From contig NAVB01000096.1 in assembly GCA_002179805.1 (NCBI GenBank), positions 1-64,000 of the forward strand: 64,000 nucleotides of DNA. Direction: 5' to 3'. The position numbers and the translations under genes were made by a program. The notes below the pieces were generated by a model. That model ran no database searches and was not told the DNA's origin. It saw nothing but the letters and a program-made list of their open reading frames with translations. The stretch comes from Acanthamoeba lenticulata (Eukaryota; Discosea; Longamoebia; Acanthamoebidae). This document shows, in pieces, positions 11,001 through 32,800 of this stretch; within the stretch, counting starts at the first letter, position 1; each line of letters opens with the position of its first letter.

Positions 11001-13615
11001 ATGTCCATGATTCGCACCTGCGTTGGGTCGTCCACCGCCGCTGTCCACGCCAACATGCGTCAGCCCATCATGAAGGTAAGCGGCTGCTTGCTGTAAACAA
11101 ACATACTTTCGGGCCGTGACAATGCGACACCAAACCCGACGACGTCGCGGTCACCCAGCTCGGCTTGCAACAGGAGCTCTTTCCACGTCGACTGCGTGAG
11201 AATGCAGTGAAAGTTCTCGGCCAACTCGTCAGACACCTGCCCGACAGCGTCCTTGTCAATGTCCACCAGCTTGATCTCTTGTTCGGCGCGAGCCAACAGC
11301 TCCGCATTCTTTTGCACCCGCTCGTTCAATCTGTGGTTCCCTGTGTGAGCAGCGCATGAAGGGACGCCCAGCACGTCATGCACGAACCTGCGGTTGCGCG
11401 AGGCCCGCTGGAACTGGTGGCCGAAGGCGATCTCGGCCAGCCGCGCCTTCAGCGCAGTCGACAGCACTGCCGCCGCCCAAGAACGGGACAAGGGATGAGC
11501 CAGGCGACACGACGACTGAAGACAAGGCCAAGGGGGAAACAAAGGGCGGCGCACTGGAGTCCCGGGCCAAAGCGATCACGATCTCGTGGATCAAGTCGAG
11601 TTTGGCGGTGAGCTGGTTGATCTCCTCGAAGAGCTGGGCGCGGTGGCGCTTGGCAAAGAGGCGCAACATGGACACGCCCTGGAAGGGACTCAGCTTCTTC
11701 CTCAGCTTCTTCACCGCGCGCTGCCACAGTTTGATTTGCTTGGCGCTGGCCGTGCGGTCAGCGCAAGCCGTGGCGTCGGTCACTTGCGTCTGCAGCGCCG
11801 CCACACGGCTGGAGATCTGCAGCAAGTCGAGCCTGCTGATGTCGGCTTGGTCCATCGGCCGAGGGGAGACGCTAAACGTCAGGTGGACGGTCTTAGCTTC
11901 ATCACCCTGTCCGAACTTGGCCGTGACCCGTGCCCGAAGCGGCTCGTTGCTGCCATAATATAAAATAATATAATATAATATATAATAAAATAAAATAGAT
12001 AAAGATAAAATAGATAAAGATTCGAGTTAAATTTGAAATAGATTTCGCTTTGCGCGTGAACTTGGGCGGGAGGAGGAAAGCGCACAAGGGCACGACAGGT
12101 CCGTCGGACTTGAGCCGGAGAAGGCTGGTCAGCTCCACCGTCGGCTCATTGCGCGAGACGTTCACCGTCTTGCTGAACCACCTGGCTGCCGTCTCTTCCT
12201 TGCCCTGGATGACCGTGTGCCCAATAAACTTGCTGGCTTTGGGGCACGCACACATGGGGCCACGTACCTGAACGCCTGTGGTCACGAAGCGCAGATGGCG
12301 TATGTCGACAGTAAAGGTGGCAGCAACGTGCTTGGACGACACTGCATCAAAGATGGCCTCCATCTTCCCCCTCAGCGCCTCAGGTCCGTCTTCCGGTTCG
12401 GCGTACTACGCGCGTCAACAAAAAAAACACATAAACAAACGTGAACCCAAGGAAGCTCCACTTGTGTTGATGGTTTTGGGCAAGGCGCGCACTTGGAAGC
12501 CGCCAGGTTTGGTGCCGAGATTGGCGCGGAGGGCGTTGAGCAAGTCAAAGTCATGGTATTGGCCAAAGGCCAGGGCGTGAACCACCACGGGCTTGCCCAA
12601 GGCGAGGATGGCTTTTCGCAGCCGCCGATATTGGTCGCGGTCTGTTGGCGCACTCCCAGACTCATCTTGGCCTGTTTCACGCAACGTCATCATGTGAGAG
12701 CGGCTCTACAGTCACTTACGTGATACCATTCTAGCCAGTTGCTGCATGTACCATCGGTGAGGAACCCGATCACGACTTCATCACAGGCCGCAGCCTCCGG
12801 TCCCTTCATAACTTTTCGGATTTGGCCGAATGCACTGTGATCACCACACGCGCAAATAAGCAAACCAATGGGCAGCGACAGTGACCTCAGCAAAAGGCCA
12901 ACCACAATCATCAATACACTCGAACCTGTCAAAGGAAGTGCCACCGCGCGCCTTCAGCGCGGACAATTTCCTGAGATAGGTGTCTTTATCTAGCCTAGTG
13001 AGGCACTGCGGGTCAGCTCTGCCCTGTCAGGGGGCGAAATGGAGAGCTGCACGCACTTGAGCCTCTGGGCCTGACTCTCGTAGACGATAACCTCAGTGTG
13101 CACGCTGGGCCAGCTGAGCAGAGACTGTGCAATAAAAAAAACAACAAGGGCCAATGCCAAAAGTCTCAGCCCACGCACACGCACCGAGCACACACAGAGA
13201 GAGCAGGAGGCTACGGCACCTGGCCGACGATGGTGGTTAGCCCCGGGACGACTTGGTTGGTAAGAGCAGAGCCCATTGAGCCGCTGGTGTCTACAACCAA
13301 AACCAAGAGCGTCTGGCGACCCACACCAGCCTGCCCCTTTATGTCATTCGACCAATCGTCCATGTGGCAGCGTAGGGTGAGGGACATTTGCCCCAACCCA
13401 GTTGCTGCGTGGTCAGACTGGGGTGGTAGTCTTAACTCACTGCTTACAACACGCAAGCCCTCTTGTTCATCTTGAAAATCGGTTTGTTTGTATTGATTAG
13501 TTGTTCGCCTCAAAGTCTTCTGATGTGAATTTGTGTACCGACTTCCATGTCGGTTGAGTGTTGTGCGCCTTGGGAGGAAGAACAACTGGCCCGAGGCCGA
13601 AAGAAGATGTCGGGT
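8030..13615 (-). CDS. Large von Willebrand factor A (vWA) domain protein
   Basis: The minus-strand stop is TGA at 8032-8030. The N-terminal part (about 13,490-12,440) carries a vWA domain with MIDAS sequence VDTSGSMG near 13,300, an ARGGTSF segment near 12,950, DEVVIGFLTDG near 12,770, and a last core strand VVVHALAFGQYHDFDLL near 12,560. About 4 kb of multi-exon coding follows: predicted helical segments, a Ser/Lys/Asp-rich linker near 9,600-9,750, and a conserved-looking C-terminal helical region (8,670-9,190 and 8,030-8,500). vWA domains bind ligands through a metal ion. A cytosolic ubiquitin- or traffic-related adaptor is possible but not shown. The 5' end is unresolved because no in-frame ATG precedes the vWA exon; an exon at 13,682-13,850 may belong to it. 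Many internal exon edges are approximate. Confidence 0.72.
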
Positions 13616-13681
13616 TGGCGGTTTTATGTTCAACGACCTTCGGGTAAGTCTTTCAGAATATAACTCCGAGCCTTGGTGCTG

Positions 13682-13850
13682 CTATGACTGACCCACAATA
13701 AATGTCATGTGGCCGTTCCCCTTCACACTCAGGTGTAACTGGGCCCTGCCTTGGCCGAAGCTGCAAGCACTGTGCTTGGCATACACTCCCTTGAGGGGTA
13801 ACATCGCTAAGGACAGCAGCCATGACTGTACCGTTCCCCAAATCCACAAC
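13682..13850 (-). other. Possible minus-strand exon, ownership unresolved
   Basis: A strong acceptor (pyrimidine-rich tract then TTTTCAG) lies at 13,851-13,862 on the minus strand. The following frame runs through KGVYAKHSACSFGQGRAQ and a strand-like segment HMTFIVGQS to TAG at 13,684-13,682. A GTCAGT donor just before that stop would allow it to be a 5' exon of the vWA gene. An upstream frame (to about 14,000) overlaps the first exon of the opposite-strand kinase-like gene, so one of the two models must be wrong at that end. No family was recognised. Confidence 0.3.
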
Positions 13851-14093
13851 CTGAAAAGTAAAAGAAATGGATTTCTCTTCTCAACGGCCATACATGCTCT
13901 TGAACAGATTAAAGGCAAAGCGGGTGGACCACCGACCAGCGGAGACCACTCGCAGCTCCCATCCGCTGTGGCTTGCCGCTGATGACTTGCACCTCACTCC
14001 CTCGGCTTCGACCAACGCCGAACATGTACTTGCTCCTGGGTACCCTCTGTTGGCACAACGTGCCGGCAAAGGATTCACTTGGGCCATGTGCAG

Positions 14094-17000
14094 ACGTGGG
14101 AGGGCGTTTACAAAGGCAGACGCGTTGCGGTGCACAGTGTGGCCGAACTTGGTGCTGAGGTCACTGACGCTCAGCTGGTCGAGCTCGGGTACTGCCCCGA
14201 ACCATAGCTTCTGTGCTGCAACGCGAATCGCTCACACGCACGCGTGGATTGGTGCCACCGCCAGGTCCCTCTACCAGGCGAAGCAGACACTCGTCAATGT
14301 GGTGGGCTTCTATCGTTCTGAAGACGACGGCAAGGCACGGCCACTCATCTGTCTTCGCCTGAGGCGCTGCCTTCCATCCTCCACTAACTTTCTGTTCCCC
14401 CCTTTGCGACTGCTGCAGGTCTACGCCGTGTACGAGTGGCCGACCGGTTACGTGTCTTTACGCGATTATCTGCAGGACAAGAAGCACACGTACGCAGTTG
14501 GATATGTTTGGCGACTCAGCTCTTCACTTACCAGCCGAGTGCACGCCGCAGAAAGCTCTCATGGGAAGACTGCATGTCGATCGCAGCTGACGTAATCGAT
14601 ACGGTTCAACTGCTGATCGACAAGAAGGTCCACAGCGCCACAAGCATTGACACACGTTCAGTGCTCATCGACAAACGATCCAAGGAGATCCAGCTCACAG
14701 GTACGTCCCGCTCGACCGCTTCATGAAGGCCACGCGGTAATCTGATGGTAGCCTGCACGAACGACATGTAGGCTTTGCCGTCGTCAGAGAGACCAACTGC
14801 CAAGCTCCCAATCACAGCGCCGATTTCGGCCGCTTCCTCGTCGGTTCGTGCTCTTTGTTTTCCCTTCAGTCTCTGGTGTGTCAACATCACCACCATCACC
14901 AAGAGGAAGATGGCCAACTCGTGTTTGTATGTTGCCTCTCTAGAGTTGATCACCAGACAGCCGGCCGAGCCCGCTTCACCTGGAGCCGATTCCATCGTCG
15001 ACACCTTTGTGAGGTCGGAAGGCTCATCTGAGCCGTCAGTCGAGGTTCCTGCCGATTGTACGTCGGAGCCCTTCAAGCAAAACTTGTTATTTCTATTGAG
15101 GTATTTATGGTATGTGCACGGAACAGGCCCGCCGGCCTTGCTTGAGCTGGCCAAGCAGTGTTGCCGCGCCCGGGCCGAGGAGCGTCCGTCTCTGCCCGAG
15201 ATTCGCAAGCGGCTCCGCGCGGTGGTTGCCGACATGCACGGACATCACCAAGCGCCTCCCCATGCTCCTGTGCCGCTCGCTGCGCCCGAGCCGCCCGCCG
15301 ACGCCGAGAAGACGAGCGACGACTCGGCCGAGATCATGAGGCTTCGAGAGCAGCTCGCGGAACGCGAAGACGAGCTCGTCCAACTTCGGGGCGAGCTGGA
15401 GAGAAAGAACGAAGAGAAAACGAAAGCGGAGGCCGAACAGACGAACGCGAAGCAGAGGCAGGAGGAAGAACTGCACCGAGTCGAAGCCGCACGCGCGGGT
15501 GCACATGAGAACGAGCTGGCAGAACTGCGCAAGAAGCTTCAGGAAGCCGTCAACGACACTCAGGAAGCGCGGAAAGAGAATGAGCGACTCGCCGCACAGC
15601 TGCATGAGAGCGGCGCCCTGCAAGACCGCTTGCATGACGCCGAAGCAGAACTCGAGCGTGCCAAGAAGGCCTTTGCTGACGAGCTGCACGCGCGTGAGGA
15701 AGCCGAACGTCATGCGCGCTCCGAGCTCGAGGAACAACGCACGGCCGCGATCAATGCGGAGACGCGACGCGACGAGCTGCAGACGGCGCTCGACGCGGCC
15801 CTCATACGGGCCACAGAGCACGAGGGCGTCATCGACCAGCTACGCAAGGGCGAACAGGAGCGGGAGGACGAGCTCAATCGAGCTCGTGAACTGCTGCGGC
15901 AGCGAGAACGGGAGCTTGGAGACGAGGCCGAGCGCGACGCACGTGCGGCCGGCGAGAAGACGCAGCGGTTGGAACAGCGAATCGCCGAGCTGGAGGACCA
16001 GCTGCAGCGTACAGAAACCGCGTCCGCTACGGCGCTCGAGTCCGGCATCGCCGAGCGGGAGCTCGCCTGGTCAGACGAGCGGGCGCAGCTCACCGACCGA
16101 TTGGCCGAGAAGGAGAACGAAGCCAAGAAGCGCGACGAAGAGCTTGTCCGTCTGCGCGATGAGGCCGAGCGCGCGGCCCAGCAAGAAGCGGAGCTGGTTC
16201 GAGCCAAGGAGGAGCTTCAAGGACAGCTCACCCAGCAGCTCCAGACCGGCCTGGCCGAGAGCGAGCGGCAAGCCAGTCTGATCACCGACTCGCTTCGGCA
16301 AATCCAACAACTGCGGGACGAGAAGCGGGACGCCGTTGCCCGCTCGGCAGCGCTGGAAACGCAGTTGCGCCAGCTCGAACACGCCAACGCGGAGCAACAG
16401 GCCATGATCGACGCGCTGCGTAAGCAGCACGAGGACGAGCTGGCCCGGTTGGAGCAGACGGCCGCCGAGCGGGCAAGCGCGCTCGAGGAGAAGCTCAAGA
16501 ACGAGTTCGAAGACCGAAGGAGAGCGGAGCGAAGCGAGCTAGAGGCACGCATGGCCGACCAAGTCCAGAAGGCCAGCGAGCGAGAGCAGGCGCTGCGGAA
16601 CGAGCGGGACGAGGTCGAGCGTCGGCTGCGGCAGGAGATGGATGACGCGCTTCGAGCTGCGGAGCGCGAGCATGAGCGTCGGCAGGAAGAGGCCATCATG
16701 CAGGCGAGGAACGAGCACGCCACGGACGAAATGCATCGGCTGCAGGAGGCGCTGGCCAAGGCCGACCGGGACGATGCCGATGCTCGCCAGATGATCGATC
16801 GGCTTCAGGCACAGCTGAGCGCAGCTGGCACTGAGCTCGACCGTCTGCGAGACGACCTGGAGCAGTCTCGCCAGCATGTGATCGAGCTCGAGCACGAGCG
16901 GGAGGCGATCAAAGCAGAGGAGCGTTCTAGGCTTGAGGAAGCCGAACGTCAGGCCGTTGAGCAGCAGCGCGAGCTGGCCCAGCGACTCGAGCAAGTGCAG

Positions 17001-18620
17001 AAGGAATGCGAAGCACAAGTGGCACGACTGCAAGCTGAGCTGGAACAGCTGCGCAGCGACCACGAGGCCGAGCTCAAGCAAGAGCGCGAGAGCCACGCGC
17101 AGGAGAACGAACGCGAGGCCACCTGGGCGCAGGAGAGGAACGAGCTGCGTCAGCAGCTTCAGCGACTGGGTGATGAGGCAAGGGGGCGTGAGGCTCGACT
17201 GCACGAGCTCGAGGCCGAGCTCGACCGCGAGACACGTCAAAGGCAGGAGGAGAAGCTTCAGCTGGAAGAGCAGCTCGAGCAGGCTCTCGAGCAACAGCGG
17301 CGCCTCGAGGCTGAGCTTGCAGAGAACGCGCAACGGGCACACGAGCAGGAGCAGAGCGCTGTGCAATCTGTGACCGAGGCGCTCGAGCAGGAGCGCTTGC
17401 GGCGACTGCGCGCCGAGGCCGACCTGGAGGAGGCGCAGCGGCTGTTGGATGAAAAGAGCGAAGCGGCGGACAAGGCGATGGCCGAGCTGGCCGAGCTGCG
17501 GAGGCGGCTGGCCGACGCGGAGGAGCAAAAGGCGGCGGAAGGAGAAGCGCAGGAGAACGAAGCACAAACGCTCCGCAAAGAGCTCGAGCGGTTGACGCGA
17601 AAGAGCGAAGCCGACGAGCAGGAGCTGTCTGGACTTCGAGAGAAAGTTGACGACGAGCGCGTCAAGCGAGAGACGGCCGAGGCAGCGCTGGCAAGCGCAG
17701 CGCGTGAGAGCGAGAAGAAGAAGGAGAAGCGGAAAGCCAAGAAGATGGACATGCGCAACGAACTCGAGCGGAGCAAACGCGCTGCGCTCGAGGCGGCCGC
17801 AGAGGCTGCGGAGAAGCTCGCTTGCTTGCGAGAGGAGCTCCTTCAACTGCGGACGGACAGCGAGGAAAGGGCGCGGGCCGCACGTCAGCAGCTCGAGGAG
17901 CGTGTTGCTCGGCTACAGGCCGAGCTCGACACAGCAGCTTCGCGTGCCGAGCAGACCGAAGCCGCAGCTGCACTCGCGCTGAAGCAAGCGGAGGACGGCA
18001 GGCGTGCCGTGGAAGGCCGAGCGGGGGAACTGGAGGGTCGCCTGGCCGATGCCGCGCGCGAGATGGCGGTGCTTCGCGAGTCCTTGGAATCTGCTGCGAA
18101 GAAGAACGAAGACGACGAGAAAAGAGCGAATGCGAAGCTGGTCGGGCTGGAGCAGGAGCTCTGCAGCGCACGCAAGGCAGGTGAGAGGCAGGAGGCGGAG
18201 AACGAGGCCCTTCGCCAGCGACTTGCCGTCAGCGAAAGCCGTTTGCAACAACCTTCCTTCCCGCCCGAGCAGCACCAGCCAGAGAAGGCCGACGACAGCT
18301 TTGTCCTGTTGAAACGCGACATCAAGCAGATGCGCACTCTCTCACGCCAGGTGCAGCGGCATCGCCAGTCTGTCGCATCCACATCAGTCGAGAGCGATGA
18401 GGACGACAATGGGTTGTTCATGCAGCAGGAGGGCGACGACTTCCTGAGCGAGCCCGGCCTCGTCGCAGCATCGCCCCGGCGACATGATTTGCCGCGGCGG
18501 CGGACCCTTTGGGGTCGTCTCGTGCACAGCCTCTGGGTCGCACTGTGCCTCGCCGTCGTCCTCCTGGCAATCCTTGTTCGGCAAAGCGAGTTTGTGCGGG
18601 CCTGGTGGGTGCCCACCTAG
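14094..18620 (+). CDS. Pseudokinase - long coiled coil - C-terminal membrane anchor
   Basis: Exons 14094-14188, 14265-14334, 14419-14489, 14552-14700, 14772-14843, 14944-15057 and 15127-18620 give 1354 in-frame codons; an ATG exon further 5' was not found. The first 200 or so residues align by eye to a protein kinase: WEGVYKGRRVAVH (beta2-beta3), TLVNVVGFY, VYAVYEW with SLRDYL (hinge), LSWEDCMSIAADVIDTVQLL (alpha-E), and RARAEERPSLPEIRKRL (C-lobe end). The VAIK lysine is His, the HRD site reads HSA, and DFG reads TGF, so it is probably inactive. About 1000 residues of nearly unbroken Glu/Gln/Arg/Leu/Ala coiled coil follow. A single hydrophobic segment (LWVALCLAVVLLAILV, near 18,530) lies 13 residues from the stop, as in tail-anchored golgins or kinectin-like tethers. 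Intron 14335-14418 is GC-AG. Confidence 0.8.
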
Positions 18621-18825
18621 GTGGCCTAAAGGCAATTTTTAACTCTACCACTCACCACAGTGGTTTACCCATCTGGACTCACTCAGAATATTTTTCCTGC
18701 CCAATCACGGTCGAGTGCCAAGATATCGGCCTTTAATGTTCCGAGGCCGACTACATGCACACTCTCAGAAGCTGTAGTGTCCTCTCTTCTTCTTTTCCTT
18801 TCGCTTCATCAAGTCTACCACAGCC
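18621..18825. promoter_or_regulatory. Short intergenic promoter region
   Basis: This 205-bp gap separates the stop of the coiled-coil gene from the signal-peptide ATG at 18,826. It ends in a pyrimidine-rich tract (18,784-18,812), a common feature just upstream of the start codon in this window. No TATA element was recognised. Confidence 0.3.
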
Positions 18826-21800
18826 ATGCAGTCGCCAAGAAGGGCAACCTTCCTTCTGCTCTTCACCTTGACAACCATCTTTCTCTCCGTTCAAGGTAAG
18901 CATGGAAGTTCTCATGCAATCACGGCTCTGGTTCTTACATGAGCGCGTGGCCTGTGTAGTCAGCGCATATGGCGTTCAGCTCTATGGCGCTGGCACCTCA
19001 AATCCAGGCCCGGTCATGGCTGCCTGGAGCTCTGCTTATCTGTACCATCGGGACGACGTCAAGTAGGTGCCCTTCCCTCAACGTCAAAGCCATTCTTTTC
19101 ACTGCCCCTATAACCTGTAATTGCACTCCACCATCGCAGCATAAGCTATTCGGGGATTGGCTCTGCTGCCTCCCTGGCACGTTACGCAGACCTCTCGCTT
19201 GTATGTTGTTTCAAATTTTAGAGCCATACTGGTTGAGCGAGCTTCTCAAAGCGAACATTACCGTGGCCATGCGCCACCTTCAGGACTTTGTTTGTCTGGA
19301 CCACCCCGTGCCAGACGTGATTAGCGAGTCCTTTGGCGGCCTGGTGCAGTTCCCGCTGATTGGTTAGGTTCTCGTGCTCGCATATAATCTGCCCAACATC
19401 AGCGGCCCTGTGGTACGCCCAGAGGTCTCAGTACGAGAAGGATCCCTGTCCACTGTTGACTCCCTTGTCGAACAATGACGACAACCAGGTCTTGGACAGG
19501 CAGACGCTGGGGCTGATCTGGGCCGATGATCACCATGTGGAATGACTCGGCCATCCAGGCGACAAACCCCAGCCTGGCCGCCGAGCTTCCTGGCGTGCGG
19601 ATCCTGGTCGGCTACAACGAGAACACGGTGGTCTCGGTCTCGGAAGGACAGGCGGGCGGTCGTGGAGGCTCCCGCTGAGACCAGATTGCCTCCGCTTTGT
19701 GCGGCGGGCAGGTTGGCCCAGGTCCGGTTGGCCGCGCCCAAGGCCGCGGCAAAGTCGGGGCTGAAGCTCTCCATGCCACGCTTGAAGACTTCCGCCTGCA
19801 GGCGCATTCCTACTCGATGTCCTATGTCAACTACGCCGACGTCGTAAAGGCCGGCGTGCCCTTTATCAACGTGATCAACCGAGCCAACAATACCGTGCAG
19901 CCGTCCGTGAGCACGGTGCAGTTGGCCATGTCAGGTTGGCGTTCCCCAGCTCTCGATTCTGTCCTGTCCTGGTTCGTGTTGTTGACAAAGTGATTCGAAA
20001 ACAAACACACAAGACTTTCAAGGTACTTTGCGCAGGGCAACTTCAATTGTGGATGCGCCCGGAAACGACTCCTGGCCGCTCTCGTACCTCAGCTACTTCC
20101 TCGTGAGGCGGAACCTGACGGCCTATGACTGCACCGAGATTCACTTGCGAACGCTGCGATCTGTTGCTCGCCTAGCTTACTCATGTGTGTGTTTTGTATG
20201 CACAGGAGATGCTAGCTTGGTTTCAGACAAACGACCAGTACGTGAGCCAACACCACACGTGAGTGCTTAGACGCTGAGGATGGCCATACCAGAACCGGGA
20301 CCCAATAGTTGGCCGTTGGCGTCCATGGCCTCGGTCATCTATCGACAGTCCTCAATCCCGACTGCGGCAAGGCCAAGGCGTTGGCGCGCTTCATCTTCTG
20401 CATGGTCGCAAAACAACCCGGTGCGTTGCTTCTTCTGTCGTTCTTTGCATTCCGCATGATTCAGTCCATCTGAAACTTGGGGCGCACAAACACAGGCAAG
20501 GCTACGTGGTGGCGTCGCGGGCGGCCAAGTCTCTGGCGCGCATCGTCAATTCAATCTGCTCCGACATCGGCATATGCATCACAGGCGCATGCGTTTGCCC
20601 TACGGACCGCGAAGGGCAGTACTGCGAACGCGTCAAGACAAGTTCGACCTACTATGCGCTTGCGATCGGGCTGGGTTCATCAAAATTGTTTTTTCAATAT
20701 CAAAATCAATATTTTTCACTCAAGGTTCATTTTTAATGATTTCTTACATGTGTGTTTGCCAAACTCAACAGGGACCGTCATCCCCGCCGTTGTGGTGGTT
20801 GTTTGCGTGCTTGTGCTCTTCATCGTAGGGCTGATGCTCATCCTCCGCCGCAAGTCCAAACAGACGGACGACTGGGAGATCGACTTTGACGAGCTGGAGA
20901 TGGGCGAGATTCTGGGCGCCGGTGGCTTTGGCGCCGTCCACCGCGCCACCTGGAAAGGAACCGAGGTCGCGGTCAAGATGCTGGTCTCGGAGCGGATCAC
21001 CAAAGACATGGAGCGCAGCTTCAAGGACGAGGTGTGCGTGATGACCGCGCTGCGGCATCCAAACGTGGTCCTCTTCATGGCGGCATCCACCAAGCTGCCC
21101 AAGATGTGCATCGTCATGGAGTTCATGGCCCTCGGCTCGCTCTACGACGTACGTTGTGTCCTCACTTTCCACTGTTGGCATCGGCCTGACATATTGATTT
21201 GGTCTGCAACACAGCTGCTCCACAACGAGCTCGTGCCTGAGATTCCGTTCGCGCTCAAGACCAAGATGGCCTACCAGGCCTCGAAGGGCATGCACTTCCT
21301 CCATTCCTCGGGCATCGTCCATCGCGACCTCAAATCGCTAAACCTCCTCCTGTGGAATGTCAAGTATTTTTACAAATCATTTAACTATTGATTTATTTTA
21401 TTATCGAGAATATTGCAGAATTTGGTCGACCAAGTTCCGCGAGGACGTGGCCAAGGGCGGTCCCGGCAAGGACGGGGCTGGGAGCGTCCACTGGACGGCT
21501 CCCGAGATCCTCAACGAGGCGGTGGACGTGGACCTCATCCTGGCCGACGTCTACTCGTTCGGGATCATCCTCTGGGCGCTGCTCACCCGCGAGCAGCCTT
21601 ACCTCGGCATGAGTCCCGCCGCCGTGGCCGAGGCCGTGATCCGCGACAACATCCGCCCGCGGCTGCCGAGCCCGGTCGGGGGCGAGGCCGACCTCCTGCC
21701 CGCCGAGTACCCGCAGTACGAGGAGCTCGTCTCCACCTGCTGGCACCGGACCCGACCATCCGCCCGACCTTCCTCGAGATCATGACGCGGCTTTCGGCCA

Positions 21801-23589
21801 TGCACGGCGACTCCCTCGGGAACAGCAGTCATCGCGGGTCGCACATGTCGCGCACGACGTCGTCCCACTCGTCTTCCTCGTCCTCGGCTCACTCGGGAGA
21901 CGCCAAACGGGAGACCACCATGATGGACGCGGTGGGCTCGGCCTCGTCGACGTCCTCGGGCTCTGTTGGCCACGGGTCAGGTGCAGGGACGACTACGAAC
22001 TCGACCGCTGCGCGGGCGCCCGACATCACGCGCGCGGCGTCGCTCTGGGCGTTCCACGCCGAGGCCATGAGCGACGCCACGCTTCTCCACAACAAGATGC
22101 TGCGCGAGGCGCTAAAGCGGCATCACGGCTACGAGGCCGCCTTCCTCCGGGACCGGAACTCGGGCGAGGGCTCCTTCTGCATGGCCTTCCAGCTGGCCGC
22201 CGACGCGCTGGCCTGGTGCTGCGACGTGCAGCGCGCCCTGCTCGACGCCGACTGGCCCGAGGCCCTCTTCGGCCACCCGGCCTGTGCCGAGGAATGGGGC
22301 GACGTCGACGACCGCGTGCTGTTCCGCGGGCTTCAAGTGCGCATGGGCGTCCACGCTGGCGCGGCCCGCAGCGTGCGCGATCCGATGACCAGGCGCGTGG
22401 AATACATCGGCCCGGTGGTCAACGCCGCGGCCCGCATCACCGCGCTGACCCTCGGCGGTCAGATTGTCATGAGCCAGGCCGTCCACGAGAAGCTCCAGGA
22501 GGCCGACGAGCTGAAGTCCTATGCAGGCCGCGTGGCCTCGCTCGGCCGCTTCGAGATGCCGGACGCGCCCCAAGGCTCGCAGCTATTCGAGGTCAAGGTC
22601 GACGGCCTTGCGTCGCGCTTCTTTGGCGGCGTCGGCCGCACGGCCGGCCATCGGGCCGACGAGCAGCTGGACGACGACAATGAGGTCGCTGATGTCCAAG
22701 GCAGCGGTGAAGTGCAGACGGTCGTCGGCGAGGGGATGGCGTTCAAGGAGGACAACTTCCTGACGTCGGCCAATCTGTGCCGGTGGATCATCGACTTTGC
22801 CGAAGTGCAAGTGGAGAAGCAGATCGGACTTGGCTCCTATGGCGTCGTGTACCGCGGTTGGTGGAAGGGCGTCGAGGTGGCCGTCAAGCGGTTCATCAAG
22901 CAGAAGCTTGATGAGCGGCGCATGCTCGAGTTCCGCGCCTTCTTGTCCGAGCTGCACCACCCCAACATCGTCCTCTTCATCGGTGCGTGCGTCAAGCGGC
23001 CCAATCTGTGCATCGTGACCGAGTTCATGTCCCGCGGATCCCTCAAGGACCTGCTCGCCGACGCCTCGGTCAAGCTGACGTGGCACCAGGAGCTGCGGCT
23101 CCTGCGCGGCGCGGCCCTCGGGCTCAATTACCTGCATTCCCTGCAGCCCGTGATTGTGCATCGTGACCTCAAGCCTTCGAACCTTCTTGTCGACGACAAT
23201 TTGAACGTCAAGGTGGCCGACTTTGCGCGCATCAAGGAGGAGAACTCGACCATGACCCGCTGCGGCACGCCGTGCTGGACCGCGCCCGAGATCTTCCGCG
23301 GCGAGAAGTACGACGAGCGGGCCGACCTATTCTCGTACGGGATCATCATGTGGGAGGTCCTCACCCGCAAGCAACCCTTCGCCGGACGCAACTTCATGTG
23401 TCGCTCGACGTGCTCGAAGGCCAAAGGCCTCAGATCCCCCACGACGCCCCGCAAGGTTTCAGCAAGCTCATGCGTAAGTGTTGGCACGCCTCGCCCTCGA
23501 AACGCCCGTCAGCAGAGGAGGTGCTTGCCTTCTTTGACCGGCAGGTCACCACAGAGACCTCCACTCAAGCCGTGTGTGAGCGAATTTAA
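18826..23589 (+). pseudogene. Decayed receptor: PstS-like/EGF ectodomain - TM - kinase - cyclase - kinase
   Basis: Domain order: signal peptide (18,826-18,895); PstS-like periplasmic-binding fold (GAGTSNPGPVM, then SYSGIGSAASLARY, ITMWNDSAIQATNPSL); an EGF-like Cys cluster (about 20,560-20,640); TM segment (20,770-20,845); TKL kinase 1 (20,880-21,800); class III nucleotidyl cyclase (22,000-22,600); TKL kinase 2 (22,790-23,560). Such receptors are typical of Acanthamoeba. The copy looks dead: in-frame TAG at 19,365; frame change near 19,527; a segment inverted at 19,656-19,792; the kinase 1 DFG replaced (KIWSTKF); one base lost near 21,746 (CWH then RTRP instead of PDPT); GEGSF in the cyclase without the second metal-binding Asp; DFGLAR reduced to DFAR in kinase 2 (near 23,222); another frameshift near 23,398. 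HRD motifs survive in both kinases, so decay is recent. Expression as a truncated product cannot be excluded. Confidence 0.8.
19649..19799. repeat. Micro-inversion bounded by 7-bp inverted repeats
   Basis: Left repeat CAGGCGG (19,649-19,655) and right repeat CCGCCTG (19,793-19,799) flank 137 bp. On the plus strand the interval breaks the PstS-like frame with stops. On the minus strand it encodes PstS-like sequence (EVFKRGMESFSPDF, ANRTWANLPAAQSG). Flipping the interval in silico joins VVSVSEGQA to it on the left and ARLQAHSYSMSYVNYAD on the right with no frame error. Confidence 0.85.
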
Positions 23590-23636
23590 AAGATATTAAA
23601 AAGGAGTAATTGATAATTAATTCTTAGTACAACTTA

Positions 23637-25669
23637 CTACACCTTATTGTTGAATGTGCTTGCCCGATTAAGGCGGATGATGGAGGCGCGGGAGCGCCTC
23701 TTGATGAGAATCAGACCCGCAACAATGACTGCAACCACAACAACCACGGCCACGGGGACGGCCACGGACACCGCCACGATCAGGCCCAGATTGTCGCTGC
23801 CGCTCGAACCGTAGCCGCCGTTGCCGTCATCACCGCGCCCGACCAGCTGCCCGAGGCTGATGCTCGGATCGTAGCTCAGCGAGTGGTTGAAGCCCGGGAA
23901 TCGCAACTCGAGCACGAACTGGGCCGAGGCCTGGGAGGCCGCCTGCTCGACGAGGATGGCGTGCTTGATGGGCGTGATGACGCCGTCCACCACGGCGTTG
24001 TCAAACACCTGAACCGTGCAGCCGAGGCTGCTTCCGCAGCTGGAGGACGGGGAAAAGGAGAGGAAGTAGCTCGTCATGCCCACTTCGGGCGTGTTGGTCC
24101 ACTCGATGACCGAGCTCGCCTCAGTGCACTGGGCTTGCGTGTCGTTGATGAGGCTCAACAACCGGTAGCGGAACGTCAGGGCTGCTGCAGTGTTGTTTGC
24201 GTTGTCGATGTGGTCGTGGGCGGATCGCGTGAGGTCGATGGACCATTTGACCGAGCCGGCGTCGACGCGGAAGACCGTGTTGGCAAACTGGCGCGACTTG
24301 GCTGACGCATGGAAGCCGAATGCTTGCTCAAGCGTGGTCTCGTTGTCCAGCTGAGTCGCGTAGATAAAGGTTGTCGTGGTGACGTTGGTGTTGTCAACCT
24401 GCTCGGTCTCGTTCACGACCGACATTTCAAACTCTGCAAAAAAAGCTTAAAATTTTAAATTTTTGGATGATTCTACTGGAGGGGAAGTTCATGACATTAC
24501 CAGCCAAGATCGATGGCGAAAGGGACTTGTTGGCGGCCTCCAGCCCGACAAGCTGGGAGGAGACGGTCATCCCCGCACCAGGTGATGCCAACGGGGCCGA
24601 GATGTTGACGGCGACGGCGGCAGAACCAAAGTCGGCGGTCACGTTTTTCACCAGCGGGAGGATGGCCGCCAGGCTGATCGGGGAAGTGGACGGCGTCGGA
24701 CTCGAACTCGGGGTCGGGGAAGTCGACGGGGTGGGGCTCCGTGAAACGCTCGGTGTTGGCGAAGAAGAGGTGGACGGCGATGGACTTGAAGAAGGAGAGT
24801 TTGTTGGAGATGGACTCGAGGAAGGGGAGTTTGTTGGCGACGGGCTCGAAGAGGGAGAGTTCGTTGGCGACGGGCTCGAAGAAGGAGAGTTGGTAGGCGA
24901 TGGAGACCTCGTCGGTGAAGGGGAGGGCGTTGACGATGGGGTGAGTGAAGGCGTCGGGGAGAAGGAGGGTGTGGTCGAGGGGATGCCAGCCAGGTCGCAT
25001 CCGGAGATGCTGAGTCGGAACGTTGAGGATTTACGCTCCCACGTACCAGAACTGTAGGAGCCACCCAAGGTCGCCGATGTGCGCAGCACCACCGGAAGGG
25101 AAGTGTTGAAAGTGGAGAGCGTAACGTAGTTCATGCCAACATAAGCAGTCTTGTTAGACAGCACGAGCCAGTAGAAACCTTGGCCCAGGTAGAGACCGTC
25201 GGGCTGAGCCACATCGAACGTGTAGTACAGATCCCCTTGGGTCGTATTCGCCAAGGCCGTCGGGGTGAGCAGGCCATCTTGAATGGGTTGTCCCGGAAGG
25301 GTGTTCACGTCTGTATAGAGCTCGGCTCTCTCGACGTTGGCGGCTAGCAAGCAAAAATGTAGTGTGTAGATGTCAGTTCTCTGTTTTGTTGGGTAAAGAT
25401 ATGGGGGCGAGAGGGTGGAAGAACGAACGATAGGTCTTCACCATGAAGGAGGTCACCATGACGGCGTTGGTCACTTCAAATCGTTGCCCCAGCTGGAAAC
25501 TAATAAAACCACTAAAAGAGGAGCGGGCGAACGTAGAGTCCAGTTCGCCACACGTGCCCACCGCCATCGAGGGAGAGGCAAGGCTGACCAGAAGCAGGCC
25601 AACCGACATCAAAGTCACCAGCCAGGTTGTAGGTGATGATCGGATCATCAGGCAGGAAGAGCCCTCCAT
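23637..25669 (-). CDS. Type I membrane glycoprotein with Ser/Pro/Thr-rich repeats, 626 aa
   Basis: Exons 25669-25429, 25343-24501 and 24433-23637 give an exact 626-codon frame. A signal peptide (LVTLMSVGLLLVSLASPSMA) follows the chosen ATG; an upstream in-frame extension is less likely because this ATG sits just before the hydrophobic core. The ectodomain is beta-rich with many N-glycosylation sequons (NTS, NKT, NET, NVT). A stalk at about 24,690-24,960 is a Ser/Pro/Thr-rich tract with about four 10-residue repeats of the type SPTNSPSSSP. Near the C-terminus one transmembrane segment (23,710-23,790, AVPVAVVVVVAVIVAGLILI) precedes a short basic tail. The stalk suggests heavy O-glycosylation at the surface. 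No family was recognised. It is convergent with the decayed receptor (47 bp apart). Confidence 0.85.
24780..24910 (-). repeat. 30-bp coding tandem repeats (mucin-like stalk)
   Basis: About four imperfect 30-bp units encode the repeated Ser-Pro-Thr-Asn-Ser-Pro-Ser-Ser-Ser-Pro pattern within the membrane glycoprotein. Unit-to-unit differences are mostly third-position changes. Length variation between strains would be expected. Confidence 0.8.
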
Positions 25670-26172
25670 CACGCTGTGTTTTGTGTTTTGATGTTCTACT
25701 GCTGAAGTCGCAACGAAGAAGAAGAAGACCAAACGACAGGATGAGGGGAACAAGCACAAGTGTACAGAAAGCAGATACCAACTGAAAAGCGTGACAACCA
25801 CCGCGGGGAACTTTCGCCAACAGGAAGCTGGTCTTTTAACTCAACCAATCACCCCAAGCAATTTCGGGGTTGGAAGCGATGCACTAGCACAACCAACCGG
25901 CAACACAGTTCGCGCGCCTCACGGCCAGGATAAAGCGAAGTGGCTCTGGCTCGTTTTGTGCTCGGGCAAACACATTGTGCGTCATCAATGTCGCTGTGCG
26001 CCTTCTGGCTAACTGAACGTAGTGCTGCCCAATAGCTACGCTCGTGTGTTGTCACCAGTAAGCTCTAGGATCAACGGTCGCGGTTCGCCCTTAAAAACAA
26101 AACAATCACAGGCACCCCACAAGTAGAAACGCAATGATGTTTGATGTACAGAAACAAGCTGTGGCTACATGA
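25670..26172. other. Intergenic, no gene seen
   Basis: About 500 bp between the start of the membrane glycoprotein and the end of the NudC-type gene, both on the minus strand. Frames in both directions are short and lack splice signals. It should hold the promoter of the glycoprotein gene and the NudC 3' flank. Confidence 0.5.
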
Positions 26173-26643
26173 TCATGGGTCCTTGGGCGCAGCAGCAGCA
26201 GCGGCGGCTTCAGCAGCCTTCTTCTCGAGCTTCTTGGCCTTCACTTGCTTGAGCAAACCCTCGTCGAGGTACTTGCTGGCTTCAATCAGCTCGGCGTCGA
26301 TGGCACCACCTTCTTTTTCTTTGTCCTCCTCGACAAGGCAGTCCCACCACTCCTCCTTATCGGGGTCGGCGATGTTCTGCAGCTTCTCCTTGCTGAGGGA
26401 GATCTCGACGGTGTCACCCTCCTTCGTCCATGTGCTCTCAGCAACCTTGATTCCCTTAGGGAAGGTGCCCTTGAGCAGGGGCGTCTGACCCTTGACGCCA
26501 AACTCGATCGACGAGCGCTCCATCTTCGACACAAAATCGCGCGCCTTGAAATGCGCAGGCACCTTAAGGATCACTGTAACCTCGTCCTTCGTTTGCGTCC
26601 ACTCGTAGTTGTCCGTCTTGCCGCCATATTCGACCACGCTCAT
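26173..26643 (-). CDS. NudC / CS-domain co-chaperone-like protein, 156 aa
   Basis: A single uninterrupted exon from ATG 26,643 to TGA. The CS (p23/HSP20-like) fold is clear: YEWTQTKDEVTVILKVP, the conserved Lys/Arg strand, then ESTWTKEGDTVEISLSK and a C-terminal EWWDCLVEED. This order matches NudC and NudC-domain proteins. The tail is Lys/Ala-rich (KAKKLEKKAAEAAAAAA). NudC-family proteins assist Hsp90 clients and dynein regulation in the cytosol; the role here is inferred from the family. It is short compared with full-length NudC, closer to the small NUDCD2-type members. Confidence 0.88.
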   Translation of the reverse strand: MSVVEYGGKTDNYEWTQTKDEVTVILKVPAHFKARDFVSKMERSSIEFGVKGQTPLLKGTFPKGIKVAESTWTKEGDTVEISLSKEKLQNIADPDKEEWWDCLVEEDKEKEGGAIDAELIEASKYLDEGLLKQVKAKKLEKKAAEAAAAAAAPKDP

Positions 26644-26830
26644 CTTGCCAGATCGTTTGTTTTCCCTTTGTGTTGAGATTGGAATGCAATAAAAATAATA
26701 AAAACTGTGGTCGGTCGACATCAAATATGCAGTCGACATTATACATTTATGAAATTCACCTATTATTTCTTGCGTTACATCGCGTATTTTCCGCAGCCTT
26801 TCTACCGCGTTCATGGCTTCATGGCTGGGG

Positions 26831-29800
26831 TTAGTCTGTGCTGAGCTCGTGGAGGATCGCCTCCAGGCGCACCACAAGGTCGGCAAAGGGCGGCCGCACG
26901 GTGGGCTCCGGGTCCCACGACTGCGCGAGCACGTCGCGCATGGCCTGGGGCCAGGCGCCGTCCAGCGCCGGCCGCTTGCCCGAGGTCACCGCGCCGGCGA
27001 CCTGCCAGCCGTTCTGGAGCTCGCCGTAGGGCATCTTGCCGGTGATGAGCTCCCAGTACAGGATGGCGAAGCTGTGCACGTCGGCCGACGTGTCGTACAC
27101 CTTGCCCCCGATCACCTCTGGCGCCATGTAGCGCGGGGTGCCCATGGCCTTGGTCATGCGCGGGCCCACGATGCGCGAGATTCCGAGGTCGGCCACGCAC
27201 GCGCTCATGTCCTCTCGGATCTGCTCGAACAACGCGCGCACGCAACGTTATCAGCACGTCATCTCGCAGGAGAGCGCAACGAGGAGAAAGGAGACGCGTA
27301 CGAGCACGTTCTGAGACTTGATGTCGCGGTGGGCCACGTTCATGGCGTGCAGGTAGGCCAGACCGCGCGCGATGTCCAGCGCCATCGACGTCGCCGTCCT
27401 AATGTCCCAGTGTTGGCGCGTCGCTGCAGACGAAACAACACAACACACAAGTCAGACGCGCGTGTGTGGCGTGGCGCACGACACGAGAGGGTTGCGTACA
27501 TTCCGCATTCTTGCCGTGAAGAATGTCAAACACGCTGCCTTGAGAAAAGTATTCGGTGACGATGAAGCAGTTGTCGTCCTCCACGTGGGCCCCGAGGCAC
27601 TGCAGGACCTCGCGCGTGCAGAGCACGCTCAGGAAGGCCACCTCGTTGAGCACCTCCTGCTTGCTCACGAGCTGCATGTGATACTTCTTCACCGCCACGT
27701 CCCGCCCCTGCCACTTGCACCGGTACACGTAGGCGCTCACTCCGCCTCCGATCTTGTCGCCCCATTCTACACATTTTCAAAAAAAAAATTAATGTAAATT
27801 AGCAAAATTAATTTAGCAAAAAATGAGCAATAAAAATAAAAATAAAAATAAAAAAGAAAGAAGGCGGACCGATATCGTCGAGGGGGATGTGGTTGTGGAC
27901 GGTGGCCATGCCCGAGAAGGTAAAGGCCAGCAGGGTGGGCAGGTGTCGGCTGTCGCCTCGCGCGATCGTCACGAAATGCTGCCAAAATTGTGGACCTGCC
28001 GGCAGTACCCAGGCGATGAGGCCGTATACACACAAGAGAGAGAGAGAGAGAGCATCGTCAGGCATGTCGTGCGTGCGTACCCGCCTGTCGGCAGATCTGT
28101 GCGGGCACTTCGAGCTGGTCGAGGGCCTTGGCCAGCTCCTCGGTCTGATCGATGGACAAGGGCGCTCGACTCGCCCGGCCTAGCCCGTCCGCCGACAACA
28201 TGATCACCAACACCTCCATCATCAGTACAACGTCGACGGAGAGCAGAGGGGAAGCTGGCGTACCGTCGTGGTCGCTCGGGTAGAGGTCCTGTCGGCTGGC
28301 CATGGACATGCCCGTGCACAGCTCGGCCAGCAGGCATGCCGCCGTGTGTTCTGCACGTCGAACAAGACCACGACGACGATGAGAAGAACGGCGCTGATGA
28401 ATACAGCTCTTTTCGCGCCGCGCGTACCGAGGAGTGGCCGCTGGAAGATGAGGTTGGCCTTCATGACCTTGATGAGCGGGCCCACGCCCTTCTCGGCGAT
28501 CACCAGCTGTGGTCGCTTGACTGCAGCCAGACGATCGTGTGAGCGCTCCACCAAAGGACGCACAGAAGAGACGTGTCGTTGTTGGAGGAAGGCGAGGCGG
28601 GTACCGATGAACTTCTGGAGGCGCTCGAGGATCATGCCGGTGACCTCGGGGTCCTCGCACGAGAGGAGCTGCAGGAAGAGTCGCAGCTTGACCACCACGT
28701 AGCGCTCCTTGGCGTGCTTGCCCAGGCTCTGCTTGTGCTCGGCGAGAAAGTGGAGCGCGTGCGACATGATCAGCCGGCCGGGCCACGAGATCAGAATGCC
28801 GCGAATGGCCTCCACCCCGCCGTCCTCCACTCCGGCCCTTCATGGGGCGGACGCGTCGTGTCAGCGCTTCAAAAAAGAACGAAAAGCGACGAAAATGAAA
28901 GCGAAGTAGAAGAATGTAAAGAACGAACCGCTGGATTTGCTGCATGGCGTAGGCGTCCCAGACGCTGCCCTGGAGGAGGCCGTTGAAGTGGGCCTTGATC
29001 TGCTCGAGTCCTCTTCTGGGACGCAATGCACGAGCGGTCTGAGCCTCTCTTCCCCACAGAGAACCAAGAAAGGGAGGAAAGACGTACTTGAGCACGCTCG
29101 CGGCGGGCGAGACAAGCGGGTTATCGTCGTAAAGCAGCGTCCGGAGGTGTCGCATCCGCGCCAGCTCGGGCGGCAGAAGCTGCAGCTTATTGTGCTGAAA
29201 TGAAAAATATTAAATAAAAATCATTTTTAAAAAAACAAAACAAATAAAGAATGCATGATATGTACGGAAATGTCGAGCATGGTGAGCGCGGGGAGCTGGC
29301 AGATGGAGGCCGGGAGGAAGGTCAGGTAGTTGGACGACAGGTTGAGGTAGGTCAGCTTGCCCAGCCCGTCTGAGAAGGCAACACGTCAGCATGACGTCAC
29401 CATATAAGTTGCAAAAAAATGATAAAATAAAGACGCACCAGAGTAAAAGGTCTCCTTGAACCCCGAGATCTGGGCCAGACGGTTGCCGGCCAGCACGAGC
29501 TCGCGTAGATCGTGCATGAACGCGATCGTCTTCTCCAGCGCAAAGATGTGGTTGCTCCTCGACACCACGCCGTTGCTGCCGCCGCTGCCCCCCATAGCGC
29601 CGTCCTCGCCGCCACCGCCGCCGCGGGGGGTCAACGCGCCGGGCCCTGTCCCGCCAGTCCGCAGGTGAGCCTCTCAAGGCCTCTTGCGCGTGGCGCAGGC
29701 GCGTACCGTCGACAGTCGACAGGGAGCGCTGTTTGGAAAAGACCTCCTTGGGCTTGAGCAGCGGTTTCGAGATGGCGCTGGGCACGCGCGGCCGTCGGAT

Positions 29801-32800
29801 CCCGCTCCCGCCTCCGGCGCGCTCGGATTTTTCCCTTTCCTTGTCCTTGAGGGCTCTCGGCGTGCCGGCCTCGTCCTCGAATCCTGTCGTCCGCACTGCG
29901 CCCGCACGGTGTTGGCGCACAAGACAACGCCAACAGCCAACGACAACGATGTCGACGACAATGATGACGACGACGAGGAGACGTACCGGTCGGGATGGCG
30001 TCGGAGGAGAGGGTGTTTTTGCGCGGCAGGGCGGCCAAGGCGGTGGCCGACAGGCAGCCCCATAGGCGGAGGGTGACCAGCGCCTGGAGCGGCGCGAACA
30101 CGATCGGGTTGATGGGCCCGAGGCCGCCGTTGCCCGAGAGGTCGAGCAGGGCGAGCCCCGTCAGCTGCGAGAAGGTCAGCGGCAGCGGGCCCTCAAGCTC
30201 GTTCTTCATCAGGTTCAGCTCGCGCAGGCTCGCCAGCGCTCCTGCGCAGTTCAACGAAGACATCCACAACAAATTGAATAAAATATTCAAAAAATGGAGT
30301 CTTTGATGTCGACACGTACCGATCTCGGGAGGAAGGGAACGCAGCTTGTTGTGGGCCAACTCGAGCGACTGCAACTGGGTCATCTCCCCGATCCTGCAGC
30401 GGCGAGTCAGGAAGATAATTCAAATCAAATAAAGAAAGGAAAAGCTCAAGAAACCATTTGGGGAGCGCTTTTAGGTGGTTGTGATGCGCCTTGAGATGCG
30501 TCAACTTGGCGAGCTTGCTCAGCTCCACGGGCAGCTCCGTCAGTTGATTCCTGCGTAAAGCCCAAATAAATATTTTAAAATGATAAGTATTTGTTCAAAT
30601 AATTACCATAAAATACGACGTCGAGAGAAAACGAACCGAGAGAGGTCGAGCGACTGAAGGGAAACGAGGCGGGAGACTTCGGCCGGAAGGACGGTGATGG
30701 CGTTGCCCTTGAGGTCGAGGCTGGTGAGCATGGGCAGCTGGAACAGGTCGTCGCTCAGCGAGCCCAGGCCGCGGTAGGCCAGGTTGAGGCTGCCCTTGGG
30801 CATCAGCAGCACCTCGGTCACCCGGTAGCCCGAGAGCTCAGTCGAGCCGGCCGCGCTGCTGGCGCTGTTGTTCTCCGAGTGGAGCTGGTCGATCCGGTCG
30901 AGGATCTCGCGCTCGGTCAGGTTCGGGCTCAGCTCCAGCAGGCCCTGGCCGCCGCCGCCGTCGGCGCCACCGCCATTGGCGGCGTTACTGACGTCAGCAG
31001 CGCCCTGAATGGGCTGGGCTCCACTGCGCGCCTGCATAAAGGACGGACTGGAGTCCAGACTGAGCCCGGCGTCGGCGCCGTCCCCATCGGCGCCATCGGA
31101 GAGGAACTCGTTGAGGTCGATCCCACGCAGGTGGTCGCCCGCACGAAGCTCCCGGCCCAGCAGGGACTGCCCGGGCCGGTTCGGGGCGACGCTGGGCACC
31201 TGCTGCTTGGTGATGATGAGCTCGTCGGGCAGCTCCATGCGTGAGTCGATCGACATGGACAAGAAGATCGACTTGCGCTTGTCCCGCGCCCAGCCGCGAT
31301 TTCGTTCGGGACTCATAATTGGCAGCTTCTCGCTTGGGGTTTGTTCGTCGTCGGCTTCCTCCGCCTCCTCGCGCAGCTGCGCCTGAACCTGCTTGGCCGC
31401 CGCCTGGTCCTCGACTAAAGAATGGAGCAAAGAGCGACAATAAGCTGTCGACAAAGAACGAAGCTTCAAGAGCAACAAAAAACGAATAACGAAATGTTTC
31501 GGAAACGTACCACTAAATGACACCGTCCGCGCTTCAGTTGCGGGTGCCGCGGCGGTCTGCGGTGAGGATGAGACAATGAACGGCGATGGCGGCGGCACGG
31601 AACGCTTGAGGTTGTTCAAGGCCGTCTTGCTCTTGCGCAGAGGCGACCGTTCGACGGGCGGCGGCGACATCGGCGTCGCCATCGTCGTCGTCGACGACGA
31701 CTCTGCAGAGTCTTCATTTCCTCCGCGCGACGGGGTGAAGGACATCGAGCCAGACGCCGCCGCGGCCGCGTTGCTGCTGTTGATGCGCTCGAGAATGGCG
31801 GCCGAGGAGACGCCCGTGTTGGTCCGCTTCTTGATACGATGCGCCGGCGGCGGGCCGCCCACACCAGGCCGCCCGGGCGACGACGAGACTGTCGGCGACG
31901 ATGGCATAATCGCTGATGTGGAGGAGGACGATGAGGAGGAAGATGATGATGATGATGATGACGAAGACGACGACGAGGTGGTTGTGGTCGCGAGAGAGGA
32001 AGACGCGGAGTGGAGAAAGGTCGGGGCCGACGGCGCCGAGCTCGAGAGGGTAGTCGGCTGCGGCAAGGCGCGACCGCGGCCCGCCGAGGGCGGGACCGGG
32101 AGTGGGCGTCCGAGGCGGCCCGCCGCCGCAGAGGGGCTTGAGGGCGAGGAGACCAGCGGTGTCATCGGGGCAGCCGACGACGGGACAGCAATGGCCGAAG
32201 CTGACGAGTTCAGCCGCACCGGTGGTCGCGGCGGCGGCGGGAAGTTCGACGGTGGGGGCATCGATGCAGCCGTGTCGGCCTGTCCTCCGCCCCGCGTCGT
32301 CAGCAATGTCCGGCACACATACCATGCATTCCACACTCAACCACGCAGAGCAGGGAGAGGAGGTCAGACCTGGGCCAGGTCGAACTGGGCGATCTCCTCG
32401 CGCAGGGCCTGCATGTCGCCTGGGCTCTGCTTGGCGGTGGTCGTGGGCGACAGCGAGCGCGAAAGGCCGAGCGAGAGCGTGCGCTGCTTGCGAGCGTCCT
32501 CGGCCGAGGCCGGCCGCAGCTCCGTCCGCTGCCACTCGCGTGTCAAGGGCGACGTAGGCGAGACCGGCGACGTCGGAGACGTTGGGGACGTGGGCGAGAT
32601 CGGCGATGCGAATTGCATCTCGCTATCCGACGAGCCTACAATGTCAACAATTAATTTTAATATTCTTGAAAAAAATTAAAATGAACAAAAAATTCAAAAT
32701 TCAAAGTGTACCGTCGCTGCTGGGTACGGCGGACGCCACAGGCGGAGCAAGCAGGCCGTAGCCCTGAGGCTTGGGATGGCTCTTGTTCTGGATCTTTTCC

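Follow-up and report, generated by a model that had tools for sequence, protein, structure and literature searches.

Background

Acanthamoeba castellanii possesses 67 receptor nucleotidyl cyclases in which the cyclase is flanked by two kinases, a layout found otherwise in the giant viruses of amoebae, according to the part of Clarke et al. (2013, PMC4053784) that was available. As regards small local rearrangements, the accessible sections of a study of template switching (PMC7954356) describe perfect inverted repeats as products of the process. The definite micro-inversions between human and chimpanzee are all flanked by inverted repeats, which are held by the authors to be key to their formation in the available text of PMC8755829.

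The locus considered here lies in a 64,000-nucleotide stretch of the genome of Acanthamoeba lenticulata (the window; NAVB01000096.1, positions 1 to 64,000), which is part of contig C90 in an assembly of 48.5 Mb and 1,825 contigs (GCA_002179805.1). Among the papers listed by searches of the literature on Acanthamoeba, PstS/receptor kinases, micro-inversion, pseudogenes and mimivirus, nothing concerned this locus.

The receptor gene remnant

The gene and its main features are as follows.

18,825-23,590 (outer limits approximate), plus strand: receptor gene remnant (pseudogene), from tblastn with the paralogue C947 and the proteins P0001-P0003 and from Pfam kinase and cyclase matches
19,365-19,367, plus strand: in-frame stop codon TAG inside the first PstS-like domain, from translation; the family members shown read through here
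20,046-20,676, plus strand: second PstS-like domain largely missing, the ends of both domains remaining, from tblastn
20,834-21,749, plus strand: first kinase domain, in more than one frame, from tblastn and Pfam
21,750-23,562, plus strand: cyclase domain and second kinase domain, with a frame change near 23,390, from tblastn and Pfam

Judged by its domains and relatives, this gene is a decaying member of a large family in Acanthamoeba, whose receptor nucleotidyl cyclases lie between two kinases and bear PstS-like ectodomains. Its remnant domain order, from PstS-like ectodomain through membrane helix, kinase and nucleotidyl cyclase to a further kinase, is the same as that of the two-kinase receptor cyclases of A. 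castellanii in the available part of PMC4053784; unlike these, the window copy is broken, with most of the second PstS-like domain gone. The cyclase between two kinases is present in pieces. Pfam detected PK_Tyr_Ser-Thr and Pkinase in window 20,477-21,388, and Guanylate_cyc followed by Pkinase in 21,413-23,596. At a threshold of 0.001, Pfam gave no match for the three short PstS pieces of the window or for the 465-aa PstS frame of C947, and the PstS-like label is based on P0001, a protein matching PF12849 and named PstS, together with tblastn using family members. GT-AG introns could be read by eye in the remnant.

The coding sequence is far from intact, being interrupted by the in-frame stop, the lost domain, the inverted piece and a series of frame changes, one of them near 19,526-19,530 and others in the PstS and kinase parts. 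When the PstS region of C947 was used as a tblastn query, its residues 226-455 had no counterpart in order in the window, and the adjoining 44-aa piece of C947 was also without a match. Intact-looking family members, C947 among them, are found elsewhere in the genome. Other places in this genome match the upstream piece (at least 52), the downstream piece (at least 32) and the inverted piece (at least 22), all three counts being lower bounds in which some places represent second domains of one gene. Fourteen receptor loci are paired at 92-97% identity on different contigs, and haplotypes seem to have been left uncollapsed in many places of the assembly.

Among the named relatives outside this genome, P0001, P0013 and P0024 are proteins of A. 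castellanii Neff, the others coming from giant viruses. The kinase/receptors of mimivirus (P0002) and moumouvirus (P0003) have the same kinds of domain, and are 42% and 38% identical to the C947 query in the PstS region; they are full-length proteins of 1,651 and 1,617 aa, whereas the window copy is a remnant. The protein searches scored the 8,000 candidates sharing the most words with the query, at 0.55-1.75 times its length, so that an orthologue may have been missed; within this scope, no close orthologue retaining the state before the inversion was identified. The PstS query from C947 returned three matches, one Neff protein and two giant-virus proteins, and residues 115-430 of the window reading frame 21,413-23,596 returned 32, of which the best was 59% identical and none close enough. 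Consequently, the state before the inversion has to be reconstructed from family members that are approximately 40-60% identical.

A conserved coding piece on the opposite strand

The inverted piece is found between collinear flanks.

19,526-19,645, plus strand: upstream flank, with a frame change relative to the preceding piece at its start, from tblastn and family alignment
19,646-19,792 (edges approximate to within a few bases), minus-strand coding sense: inverted piece, from translated searches and family alignments
19,793-19,933, plus strand: downstream flank, from translated search and family alignment
19,649-19,655, plus strand: left 7-bp arm CAGGCGG, from the sequence
19,792-19,798, plus strand: right 7-bp arm CCGCCTG, from the sequence, one base to the left of the position given earlier

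An earlier note on this DNA had described an interval whose coding sense is opposite to that of its flanks, bounded by short inverted repeats. This description is borne out: the minus-strand translation of 19,640-19,807 matches at least 22 other places in the genome (best E value 1.2e-9, 42-59% identity), and both flanks, read on the plus strand, find members of this family too. The left arm lies where the note placed it, while the remaining positions require small corrections, the right arm being at 19,792-19,798 rather than 19,793-19,799, the spacer 136 rather than 137 nt and the palindrome CGCCTGCAGGCG at 19,793-19,804 rather than 19,794-19,805. From arm to arm, the length is 150 nt.

The strand of the middle piece was compared with that of its flanks across the family, using 38 of the 53 upstream and 15 of the 33 downstream matches; among the matches left out, that at C947:17,714 alone shares a contig with a middle match, with which it agrees in strand. 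Middle and flank were found on one strand in all 19 family places with a flank match within 600 bases, the window alone having them on opposite strands. The three places lacking a flank match in this census (L025, L028 and L029) proved to be same-strand by alignment. The uninverted order that the note had proposed looking for in paralogues is therefore present at 22 of 22 places, and this uniformity, set against the window, implies the inversion of a conserved coding piece rather than chance. The possibility that the minus-strand arrangement is normal sequence for some of the family was also considered and rejected, as it occurs at none of the 22.

Many family members have an intron of 73-111 nt (preferred readings) near the junction at 19,793, which some lack; the window copy shows none. 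The right breakpoint may conceivably fall within such an intron.

Exact re-inversion and the junctions

According to the earlier note, flipping exactly the interval between the arms restores a continuous PstS-like segment. With respect to the reading frame this is correct, since the codon grids of the upstream and downstream flanks agree and that of the middle piece coincides with them when mirrored about the midpoint of the two arms. With respect to length it is not. Relative to the exact flip, the left junction is four residues shorter in 16 of 20 distinct family sequences, three shorter in three and two shorter in one, such that none of the 20 fits. At the right junction, 14 of 20 loci can be read as three residues longer, although six of these 14 permit another reading as well; a further three are two residues longer, two are longer by either none or two, and one is unreadable. 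The relatives used for these lengths are distant (approximately 40-60% identical), and the length at the left junction varies by at most two residues within the family. The continuity gained is also confined to the segment and does not extend to the gene, because the upstream flank starts at a frame change and is preceded by the in-frame stop.

The sequence around the piece contains 11 inverted-repeat pairs within 451 bases, of which four are perfect 7-mers, the pair formed by the arms included. When zones of 24-25 nt at the same spacing were placed at random, a 7-bp pair was present in 1.5% of 20,000 placements. Taken together, these figures make the 7-bp repeat by itself weak evidence, neither negligible nor decisive. 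Inspection of the junctions by eye reveals that a conserved glutamate codon is kept in the left flank and also starts the inverted piece, and that the Arg-Leu codons ending the inverted piece are the first codons of the right flank too. Since the exact flip disagrees with the junction lengths of the family, the 7-bp inverted repeat is more readily seen as something left behind by a template-switch event than as what triggered it.

A second copy of the locus on contig C556

Contig C556 aligns with the window at 97% identity in two long stretches, 11,962-18,652 and 23,528-31,000. This identity, together with the conserved order, indicates that C556 is probably the other haplotype of the locus. 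Its copy of the gene is more damaged than that of the window and has additional deletions. The earlier note had offered a real mutation in a dying receptor gene as one reading of the inversion, and this is supported both by the several further lesions in the window gene and by the even more broken state of the probable second haplotype. The inverted piece was searched for in C556 and not found, the region being absent there: window 19,189-21,462 is replaced by approximately 690 bp of different sequence.

The replacing sequence, L093:2152-2845 (C556:15751-16444), lies between the counterparts of window 19,188 and 21,463 and has partial matches on seven other contigs. One of its frames shows an apparent resemblance to the terminal RNase H part of a copia-type retroelement. 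At window 18,652-18,690, immediately upstream of the gene, 37 bases of the window correspond to 129 in C556.

C556 has a micro-inversion of its own, in the second kinase domain.

23,410-23,509, plus strand: stretch in family orientation in the window and inverted in C556 (C556:14059-14159), from the C556 alignment and tblastn with P0002

This second inversion comprises approximately 100 nt, C556:14,059-14,159 being on the opposite strand to window 23,410-23,509. The mimivirus protein P0002 matches the window in the plus sense at 23,392-23,562, from which it follows that C556, and not the window, is inverted here. Window sequence is missing on both sides of the inversion, and within 12 nt of the edges perfect inverted pairs reach four bases at most. 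This implies that the second inversion needed no repeat.

The deletions in the cyclase domain (window 22,024-22,140) differ between the two copies, which therefore seem, on this alignment, to have been damaged separately. Across five aligned blocks (window 18,690-23,979), from which one cross-matching row was dropped and of which the last extends beyond the gene, 41 sites that are CpG in the window are TG or CA in C556, against 10 in the reverse direction; the equivalent counts in a block of the upstream flank (18,115-18,652) are 0 and 2. This asymmetry suggests that CpG sites have been decaying on the C556 side. In Acanthamoeba, mobile elements are reported to carry cytosine methylation in the available part of PMC12210455.

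Inversions elsewhere in the assembly

Neither the assembly in general nor the gene family shows such flips. Family members, some of which may not be intact, were compared in 14 pairs, each 92-97% identical over approximately 3 kb; with up to six pieces viewed per pair, none has a piece on the opposite strand. Matches to the kinase region keep to one strand in each of the 35 contigs, C90 excluded, that have at least two. The long alignments of C556 to the flanks of the gene (6.7 and 7.5 kb, approximately 14 kb together) contain no inversion. That one gene should hold two inversions, one per contig, is a striking observation, although the comparison is post hoc and involves small numbers.

Origin of the inversion

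The explanation that appears probable is that the inversion is real and just one of many mishaps in a receptor gene undergoing decay, arising most likely through template switching, with the repeat mostly a by-product. While the gene decayed, some 147-150 nt would have been copied in place in reverse orientation. A single template switch during replication or repair is the most likely route, in which the forward copy jumps to the nearby complementary strand, copies backwards and then jumps forward again. If such a switch copied a few bases at both ends, each junction would be left with a short copy of the opposite end, which would explain what the junctions seem to carry: the glutamate codon at the left, with its inverted counterpart at the right, and the Arg-Leu codons, inverted at the left and present again at the right. 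Copying of the ends would by itself make most of the 7-bp inverted repeat.

What the window holds, a reverse-complement copy in place between collinear flanks, is the arrangement expected of a template-switch micro-inversion. Short-range switches under the four-point model, in the accessible sections of PMC7954356, share with it both the reverse-complemented fragment in place and the inverted repeats in the descendant, the difference being that the ancestral sequence is here inferred from distant family members. The comparison with primates is more mixed, based on the available text of PMC8755829. Local inversion and short inverted repeats at the edges are common to both, but the primate micro-inversions are of 17-33 nt and mostly exact copies, while that of the window is of approximately 150 nt and fits the exact flip poorly. 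The regular flanking of the primate cases by inverted repeats, along with the 1.5% frequency under random placement, would count against the repeat being a by-product.

These same observations favour an alternative in which the gene is equally dying, and the 7-bp inverted repeat existed beforehand and brought about inversion of exactly the 136-nt spacer, either through a repeat-mediated template switch or through break-induced repair. The arms are perfect and lie at the edges, an exact flip preserves the frame, and the known primate micro-inversions sit between inverted repeats of 3-75 nt (PMC8755829, available text). Against this, the exact flip leaves two to four surplus residues at the left relative to all 20 family sequences and lacks three at the right relative to 14 of 20, and the inversion in C556 arose with no inverted pair of more than four bases at its edges. 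Such an origin is consequently regarded as unlikely, if still the most serious competitor to the end-copying switch.

It is much less likely that the inversion is an artefact of assembly or sequencing, as the earlier note had allowed, and that the locus in reality has the same arrangement as the rest of the family. The several small frame breaks in the gene, and the fact that both C90 and C556 look damaged in it, are compatible with such errors. However, no local inversion is seen in the 14 member pairs or in either of the long flank alignments, and in the stretch compared it is mainly the gene that is damaged, in different ways on C90 and C556; outside it there is a slight difference in length immediately upstream. 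The words normally used by assemblers are also much longer than a 7-bp repeat. The assembly is thus presumably correct at this site.

The third suggestion of the earlier note, a repeat-mediated invertible switch turning the receptor ectodomain on and off, draws on the bounding of the piece by inverted repeats and the frame compatibility of an exact flip, but is extremely improbable, as the lesions up- and downstream lie outside the invertible interval and persist in either orientation, leaving no functional reading frame in either, a single orientation is found in 22 of 22 family places, the region is absent from C556 and the exact flip fits the junctions badly.

Significance

An inversion of this type, most plausibly left by the template switch proposed above, is an ordinary kind of mutation; what is mildly notable is the presence of a different micro-inversion in each of two copies of one dead gene. 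Genes that are dead or silenced in this genome might undergo an unusually high local rate of template-switch rearrangement (micro-inversions, deletions and repeat insertions of 100-700 nt), which would account for a different micro-inversion in each of two haplotypes, approximately 3% apart in their flanks, within a single gene, while the flanks and the compared members have none; this is a speculative and rather doubtful extension of the data. The locus nevertheless provides a readable example of the decay of a receptor gene within a large amoebal gene family. As what appear to be its two haplotypes are both retained in the assembly, the types of lesion in them can be compared directly. If dead genes in this genome do collect micro-inversions, such assemblies would be suited to measuring template switching beyond primates and yeast.
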